From Cristatella mucedo (taxonomy: Eukaryota > Bryozoa > Phylactolaemata > Cristatellidae): a DNA stretch of 64,000 nucleotides. Below the pieces are notes generated by a model. The model worked only from the letters and a program-made list of their open reading frames with translations. It made no database searches and was not told where the DNA came from. The position numbers and the translations under genes are program-made. Below are positions 42,101 through 46,267 of the stretch, one piece after another. The stretch spans positions 558,001 to 622,000 of the forward strand of contig WPIO01000138.1 of the NCBI GenBank assembly GCA_009760855.2, written 5' to 3'. How positions within the stretch are numbered: position 1 is the stretch's first letter; each line of letters starts with the position of its first letter.

Positions 42101-45100
42101 AGCTAGCAGCGGCAGAGGCATGCCCCCTTGCATTACCAGCAATGGCACGCACATACATATTGGGTATGCGCCAATCAGCAGTGCTGCACGGAATATTGGT
42201 GACAAAGCTCTGCATGGTGAGCACAAACGGCACCAAGGACAGCATCGGTGCAGTTCGGGCAAACTGGGCAGCATGGAATAGGCAATGCAGCCAGCAAGAC
42301 TGGGTAGCTAAAGCACAGCGATGGAGGTAAGCCTTAGGCTCAGCTACCCTGTCCCAAGCTACAATCTCCAACGAACGGCCGCACAGCAGCAGAGCCAATG
42401 GCAGCTGCACTAAAATCTTGAAGGCATTAGAGAGCCTAGCTTCGTCGTGCAAGCGGAGGCTGAAGGTCACTGAAGGCAGCACACCGATCCGCCGGTTGTC
42501 TGTAGATGGCTAGAATGGCTGCACCTCGAATGTCGTAGTAGTCACACCCCAATCGACTAGCTGGAAGAGCAAAAAGCCGGTAGCCAATCCTGACTGAGAG
42601 CATTTAAGGTGGATGCACTATGAGCTGATGCCTAATTACTCCGGCAGACCATTAATTGCTAAACCGGGCATCTGCTGCATGCACCGGTCGACTACCCAGC
42701 ACTTCCTGCTGCCGACTAAGGTGCATTCTGAAGTTGCTGCTGCTGAGGCGGCCAGTGAGCTGACGTGGCCTTCTATGGCTGCTGCAGTCACAGCCGATGA
42801 GTCGGCTGCAGCAGCCTCACTCTGCAGCAGTCTAGCCAGCACGAGGTCAAGGTTTGCTCGGGCCGGTGCAGAAATCAATAAAACATAACCAATGCTGAAT
42901 TGTAATGACAGCCTGATTTATAGATGCACTCACCAGCGTAGCATTGGTCTCGTTGGAGTCGCCTTCTGGGAAAGGAGTGTAGATAGCCAGTGCAATGCAG
43001 TTGGCAAAAATCGTGCATAATATGATCCACTCGAACACAGTGACTCGGTCGTCAAGAAAGCAACCGCATGTACCGGGAACAGAGCAGCGGACATGGCAGA
43101 GGCAGCGGCAGCCTCGCACAAGCTGCACGAACGTATGCACTGTTCAGGCGCCAGCAAGCCCCCAGTGAGCTAGCACCACCACCGGGCTGGCTGGCAACAA
43201 GAACCACACATGGCAGGCAGGCAGGCAAGCTGCTGCTGCTGCAGCTGCTAGAAGCAGATGTATCCATGATTAGCTTGAGGCCCCCCCAGTGCGCCCTACA
43301 TTGGCCCACAAGTTTGCCAGAATGGCGTTATGCTACTAAGCTCGAAAGCATCAACTTGATGCAGCTGCTGAGAATGTATACAGGCACACATGCCCGCAGA
43401 CTCTCGTGCAGACAGCATATACAGGCACTGCAGTCTCAAAAAGATGCACTGCCAGCAGCCTCAAGTCTAGCCACTATCCATGCTCCTACTATAGACTTCC
43501 TATCTCCCGACCACCAAGAGCCGGCAGTGGACCTCAAACCTAGCCGGTAAAGCTGCTCTTCGGCAGCACCTTCCCCAGCAGGCGATTGCTAGCCAACGAG
43601 CCGCTGGCTCAGCCAAGATGCAGAGGTAGCTTCACACGTAATAGATGCCTCATGACCAGGCAGTCCAGGTGGCAGATGAAATAAAGACAGTGAACCCAGG
43701 ATTAGGCAGCTTGCATGGAGACATTGCAGCATTGTGCAAATCTGCTGCTGAGCAGCCTAGCCTGCCACTGCAAATAATGCACAGCCGGCAACCGATCCCA
43801 AGGTGCAGGCCAGGCGAATTGAGGCCGGCCGACCAACTGGAGCTTACCTGCTAGGGACCTGCTGCATCTGCATCCGGCATTAAGCACTGACCTCGGCAAA
43901 ACCTGGGTCCTCTCACAATTAGGGCAATGGACAGGTGCATAGCAGAAGACATGTTTGAGCAGCTACTGAGGCAGTCTTTCGGAAAGTTCCCTTTGCTGTC
44001 TCTGAGCCCAAGCACCACAAGCAACCCAAAAAGGATACGTCCGGGAGAGGACTCTTACAGGGCGTAAAGTCTTCGTCGCGTGCCACCTAGAGTGCAGGCC
44101 AGGAAGCTGCACGAGACAGGTGCAGATGGCTGGTAAAGCAGGATCGGGCATATTATTTGCTGTCCGGCCGGTGGCCAGCCGGCACCTTCCACCCCCCAAA
44201 TGCCACTCGGGACTACAAGCCAGAAAGAGAGGCCAACCAAGGCACAGATCATGCTCAGTCTGCTTGACTTTGCTGCAGTGCAGCCAAGAGGTGTACATAT
44301 AGGTATGCCTTTCAGAGAGGTAGGTCACACAGATATACTGTATGTCATATGCATAGGAATGCTACAGGTGTGTGTGTGTGTGTGTGTGTGTGTGTGTGTG
44401 TGTGCTGGGTGTGCATGCATGCAGAAATTAAAGGAGCTACACCCTCTACGCAGCACTAGATGCACAGTCTAAGCTAAACTAGGGGTTCCACTTTGTGGGA
44501 CAAGCACTCAGGAGCTGCAAATCCATTCTCACGACAGCCAAGCTCTGGCCAAGTGGACCGCTGGTAATTGACATCAGGCATTGCAATCCATCCAGCAGGT
44601 CGTCATCCTGCAACCTGCCCTGGTTTAGCCCATGGTCAAGTCGCCTCACCTTCGAAGGCCATGTCAAGGCAAATGAAATACACACACACACACACACACA
44701 CACACACACACACACACACACACACACACACACACACACACACACGCACACACACACACACATATATATATAAGGTGAATGCATTAGGTGAGTGAGGTGG
44801 TGGTATAGCCCTGAAGCAAAAGTGAAGCACCTGGATAGAGATTAAGTTCTCTTGGAGCACTATACAAATGAAACCTTCGGGCTGGATGAAGGGCTGGGCG
44901 AACTAATTGCCGGTGCAACAAGAAAGCAGCCTGCCGGCAGGGGGTGAGGCTCACCTGCAGGCAGTGAAGCTCCCACAGAAGGGCTCGACCTGGCTGCGGA
45001 TGGCTATAACACAATTTGCAGCTGGCCAAGTGGGCTCGGCAGTGGTATGCTGGAAAAAAGGTACTGAAAAACTACCAAAAACAAATACCGGTGCACATGC

Positions 45101-46267: not shown

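Follow-up and report, generated by a model that had tools for sequence, protein, structure and literature searches.

An AT-AC intron of the minor type ahead of segment IS1 in an L-type calcium channel gene, one of two in the genome

The window, that is, the whole analysed stretch of 64 kb, corresponds to positions 558001-622000 of contig C42 in a genome of 572 Mb and 688 contigs. Its minus strand carries a voltage-gated calcium channel gene that extends from about 46005 to beyond window position 1; the part inside the window takes in domain I, domain II and the beginning of domain III, as located with a Cav1.2 protein query. With exons 2-4 joined, the top matches are solved chains of Cav1.3 and the next are those of Cav1.2 (best E 5.1e-70), and the Pfam Ion_trans domain is recognized in the same joined exons at 1.9e-23. 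In domain II, the top matches are Cav1.2 chains. The assignment to Cav1 made in the original prediction is thus borne out by the best homology, and the sequence comparisons support the host gene as one of two L-type genes in the genome. Twelve introns were placed in it, the exons of the I-II and II-III linkers being covered in part; ten are GT-AG introns with U2-type donors (GTRAGN, GTCAGT or GTACGT), and two are of the minor type. The features are collected in Table 1.

The cytoplasmic N-terminus encoded by exon 2 contains a motif resembling NSCaTE, as this is defined in PMC3634016. An in-frame methionine (Met2, at 45898) follows about 14 residues past the motif, the usual spacing being 0 to 10. 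Exon 2 of the second Cav1 gene (C53; L040, about 7300-7400) likewise has an NSCaTE-like W-xxx-L motif, WEQTLAALRKQSAM, followed by an in-frame methionine.

Table 1. Features of the channel gene in the window (C42) and corresponding introns in related genes of the genome
Feature	Gene	Position in window	Strand	Sequence	Basis or remark
Exon 2 (cytoplasmic N-terminus, end ...NIVEQA)	C42	45774..46005	-		acceptor side at 46005 inferred from CAG/AC
NSCaTE-like calmodulin motif in exon 2	C42	45938..45970	-	W-NRA-L, WNRALLVAG	resemblance by eye
AT-AC minor-type (U12) intron, phase 2, 2734 nt	C42	43040..45773	-		sites, length-keeping join, paralogues
U12 5' splice site	C42	45764..45773	-	ATATCCTTTG	exact pattern match
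Branch element of AT-AC intron	C42	43051..43059	-	TTTCTTGAC	1 mismatch to TTCCTTRAY; branch A 12 nt from last intron base
3' terminal AC of intron	C42	43040..43041	-	AC	intron end GTCAC at 43040
Predicted exon 2/3 junction	C42		-	GTGGAGCAAGC^TGTGTTCGAG	from splice sites
Exon 3 (IS1)	C42	42934..43039	-		homology and splice sites
Exon 4 (IS2-IS3)	C42	41482..41621	-		GT-AG introns of ordinary type on both sides
GT-AG minor-type intron in IIS6 (ICGN-Y-ILLNVF), phase 1, 109 nt	C42	4945..5053	-	donor GTATCCATTT, end TTCCTTAGTGCTGGTGTCTAG	
Branch element of IIS6 intron	C42	4957..4965	-	TTCCTTAGT	pattern match, 1 mismatch
Predicted IIS6 junction	C42		-	GGTAACT^ATATTCTTTTG	from splice sites
AT-AC intron, second Cav1	C53			ATATCCTTTT ... 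CTCCTCGACTGTCGTCCAGCAC	branch element 2 mismatches; class by BLAST only
AT-AC intron, Cav2	C77			ATATCCTTTT ... TTCCTTAGCGTTCCGTCGTCAC	branch element 1 mismatch; join gap-free against Cav2.2 chain
AT-AC intron, Cav2-like	C550			ATATCCTTTT ... AGCCTTAGCAGGAGTTCAGCTCAC	branch element 3 mismatches; class by BLAST only
AT-AC intron, Cav3	C110			ATATCCTTTC ... TTCCTTGACTGCCCCTTCGTAC	intron ends and branch element (0 mismatches) read by eye; join gap-free against Cav3.1 chain
IIS6 donor	C53			GTATCCTTTT	
IIS6 donor	C550			GTATCCTTTG	
IIS6 donor	C343			GTATCCTTCC	
IIS6 donor	C77			GTATCCACTC	

Between the N-terminal exon and the exon of segment IS1, the sequence reads GTG GAG CAA GC / ATATCCTTTG ... 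TTTCTTGACGACCGAGTCAC / T GTG TTC GAG, with the slashes marking the two ends of the intron. The original prediction of a U12-type AT-AC intron at this place, with its donor starting from 45773 and its end at 43040 on the minus strand, proved exact to the base, and the donor, the branch element, the AC end and the related genes all agree with it. The donor matches ATATCCTTT at 9 of 9 bases, and the branch element carries the single mismatch, at 12 nt, that had been claimed for it. The joined peptide shows no gap at this join when it is aligned with the solved chains of Cav1.3 and Cav1.2.

The uniqueness of this join was examined by listing every join within a zone that reached 15 nt into each exon anchor and 200 nt into the intron. 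Among the 74 joins that are open and in frame (26 AT-AC, 25 GT-AG and 23 GC-AG), only the one at 45773/43040 keeps the Cav1 length. Some of the other AT-AC joins, with the donors ATCGTGGAG and ATCAACATC, are off by 1 to 3 residues, but they disrupt IVE...FE, a conserved stretch. The 25 GT-AG and 23 GC-AG joins would leave room for an ordinary U2-type intron with shifted boundaries between exons 2 and 3, but none of them keeps the protein length, and all were rejected on that ground; the original claim that GT-AG sites offer no join of correct frame and length holds. Among the GC-AG joins, the nearest misses by 4 residues, with AVFE being lost, and another adds 6 residues; the nearest GT-AG joins are off by 6 and 7 residues, one adding 6 residues and the other losing VEQAVFE. 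Moreover, under such a reading a U12 motif at the same codon would be a coincidence in five genes, and an intron of this ordinary kind is accordingly most improbable.

Exact ATATCCTTT occurs once in the 64-kb window with both strands counted, as does exact GTATCCTTT. A rough first-order Markov estimate, made post hoc, puts at 1.4e-8 the chance that a donor, a branch element and an AC fall together on any of ten length-keeping joins. The branch element by itself shows no excess in the window, where 56 matches with at most one mismatch compare with 57.9 expected, so that taken singly it says little. The weight lies on the exact donor at the sole length-keeping join, together with the paralogues. 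The GTATCCTTT occurrence is situated at 44030..44038 on the minus strand, inside the AT-AC intron; apart from the donor, the window contains no other perfect RTATCCTTT, and about 0.6 would be expected over both window strands from the per-position figure for ATATCCTTT. In the whole genome, ATATCCTTTG is present 1446 times versus 781 for the reversed pattern, with repeats not excluded from either count.

A protein search of the genome for channels gave 53 matches, from which six Cav genes were considered: the Cav1 genes on C42 and C53, the Cav2-like genes on C77, C550 and C343, and the Cav3 gene on C110. An AT-AC intron is located at the same codon and in the same phase 2 in five of the six (C42, C53, C77, C550 and C110), and all five introns possess the ATATCCTTT donor, with weak branch elements in C53 and C550 (2 and 3 mismatches). 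This comparison was made within the genome, other animals being brought in through the literature, and the count of five in six leaves out channel-like BLAST matches on C57, C110 (1270383), C210 and C244. In the case of the gene on C343, exon 2 was not found in the 20 kb upstream, where a single ATATCCTTTG exists with no recognisable channel exon ahead of it. On C57, ten channel-like exon matches lie between 77817 and 509603, about 430 kb, and may represent a cluster of related channel genes.

The related genes also bear on whether the AT and AC ends might belong to two different introns, with a small exon missed inside the 2.7-kb intron. The micro-exon screen of the intron was less than exhaustive, which leaves such a reading some room; the direct exon 2/3 join, however, is already gap-free against the Cav1 chains, and the introns of two paralogues, only 158 and 224 nt long, have the same two ends, so that a missed exon has a very slight chance of being there. 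Equally slight is the probability that the AT-AC intron is spliced by the major spliceosome, as is SCN4A intron 21: Wu and Krainer reportedly found U2-type AT-AC introns to be without the ATATCCTTT donor and the U12 branch element, the donor is exact here in five genes, and the C42 intron, with its tail ...GACGACCGAGTCAC, has no polypyrimidine tract directly ahead of its AC, which outweighs the caution that AT-AC ends alone are no proof of U12 splicing (PMC2831892). The intron is thus, with hardly any room for doubt, the conserved U12-type AT-AC intron that Cav (and Nav) genes have between the N-terminal and IS1 exons; the gene concerned is one of the two of L type in this invertebrate.

Genes for three of the four minor snRNAs are recognized in the genome: U11 on C680 (102 bits, gathering 39), U12 on C222 (114.9 bits, gathering 53) and U4atac on C33 (81.2 bits, gathering 53). 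The U12 gene contains GAGTAAGGAAAATAACGA, the branch-pairing arm. Duplex energies between this arm and the branch sites are non-discriminating, with -5.0 to -8.7 for the minor-type sites and -5.4 and -7.9 for two ordinary introns. Neither the Rfam model, which scored only 46 of the 16,209 candidates, nor three sequence patterns found U6atac in the genome. According to PMC2770079, schistosomes possess all four minor snRNAs, but BLAST was not sensitive enough to detect them and a more sensitive method was needed, and their U4atac and U6atac are quite diverged; for this reason, the failure to find U6atac is no strong argument that it is absent.

Removal of the AT-AC intron by the minor spliceosome in vivo is predicted, and judged almost certain, from the sole length-keeping join, the four paralogues and the U11, U12 and U4atac genes. 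U11 would pair with the ATATCCTTT donor in the pre-mRNA and U12 with the branch element TTTCTTGAC, both pairings being established for this class of intron. U4atac, a presumed U6atac and U5 would complete the minor spliceosome, and the GC of exon 2 would be joined to the T of exon 3, generating the codon GCT (Ala) in VEQAVFEW.

The second minor-type intron of the C42 gene, situated in segment IIS6, was absent from the original prediction and is an addition to it, with no claim of being unpublished. Its join, AAC T + AT ATT, restores ICGNYILLNVF and is gap-free against a Cav1.2 chain. In the five Cav1/Cav2-like genes examined (C42, C53, C550, C343 and C77), the Cav3 gene being left out of this comparison, the IIS6 donor starts with GTATCC in every case. 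Acceptors are seen in four of the five, with branch elements of one mismatch in C42, C53 and C550 and two in C77, at distances of 9 to 18 nt; in C343, the stretch covered contained no recognised acceptor. Directly ahead of the U12 donor in the C42 gene, there is a U2-like donor, GTAACT, the use of which gives ICDILL, two residues short. It is conceivable, and on balance doubtful, that the IIS6 GT-AG intron is ancestral to all Cav1/Cav2 genes, in which case each high-voltage-activated channel transcript would undergo two minor-spliceosome events and the use of GTAACT (ICGNYILL to ICDILL) could compete with the U12 donor.

Apart from the channel genes, members of one dispersed family of repeats around AAAGCGCCCTCAGAGAACTCAATCTC...CTTTACATTTGCTGCAAAGGG occur in both orientations at many places in the window (e.g., 16507, 37855 and 60848), with several copies more than 85% alike. 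The mitochondrial contig (C688, 21,008 bases) contains a COX1 whose reading frame stays open under codes 4, 5, 9 and 14 alike, so that the choice of code rests on codon use. In alignments to two solved COX1 chains, 2 of 2 AAA codons stand opposite Lys, and 9 of 10 and 10 of 10 ATA codons opposite Met. Code 9 is the flatworm mitochondrial code; the codon use of this COX1 fits code 5 and not code 9. Further COX1-like matches exist on C166, C83, C549 and C299 and are perhaps nuclear copies of mitochondrial DNA. The genome combines two L-type (Cav1) genes (C42 and C53, the latter L040/L069) with a COX1 fitting code 5, and among non-vertebrate animals, PMC3634016 states two L-type genes for flatworms only. 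A flatworm host, which the pair of Cav1 genes had suggested, was rejected in view of the COX1 codon use.

The premise that sodium and calcium channel genes carry conserved U12 AT-AC introns agrees with the literature. According to PMC6259924, nearly all Nav/Cav channels known so far retain the U12 AT-AC site of D1S1, its Figure 6 legend naming Nav2, Nav1, Cav1, Cav2 and Cav3, and PMC3634016 states that the L-type N-terminus ends at an AT-AC intron, often of U12 type, common to Nav. Together with the occurrence of the same intron in five of the six Cav genes, this published record upholds the idea that an ancient intron has been retained. It follows from the same record that the intron before IS1 is a new instance of a documented ancient intron, not a new intron, and is expected rather than new. 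Knowledge of minor splicing itself is unchanged. Nevertheless, a rare intron can be placed to the base from raw sequence; the ancient AT-AC intron is documented for five calcium channel genes of one further genome; annotation gains the exact exon 2/3 join, which gene models restricted to GT-AG sites would overlook; and a second minor-type intron is pointed out in IIS6, common to the five Cav1/Cav2-like genes examined.

Compared with the D1S1 intron of Nav1, Nav2, Cav1, Cav2 and Cav3, the intron described here belongs to the same family and shares the place after the N-terminus and before IS1, the ATATCCTTT donor, the TTCCTTRAC-like branch and the AC end. The two do not differ substantially: what is added is a further species, which has two Cav1 and three Cav2-like genes, and single-base variation in the branch element. 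In Cacna1c, the minor introns are given as introns 2 and 13 (PMC8767276), so that there, too, an L-type gene has two minor introns and the first of them is intron 2; intron 13 may correspond in position to the IIS6 intron. In the same report, knock-down of U6atac in rat cardiomyocytes leads to retention and lower Cav1.2. Among the Drosophila U12 introns in Table 2 of PMC2831892 are Ca-alpha1D intron 3 (GT-AG) and Ca-alphaT intron 1 (AT-AC), and U12-type introns are thus also kept in the L- and T-type genes of a protostome, a likeness in intron class; the minor intron of Ca-alpha1D has GT-AG ends, in contrast to the AT-AC intron of the C42 gene.
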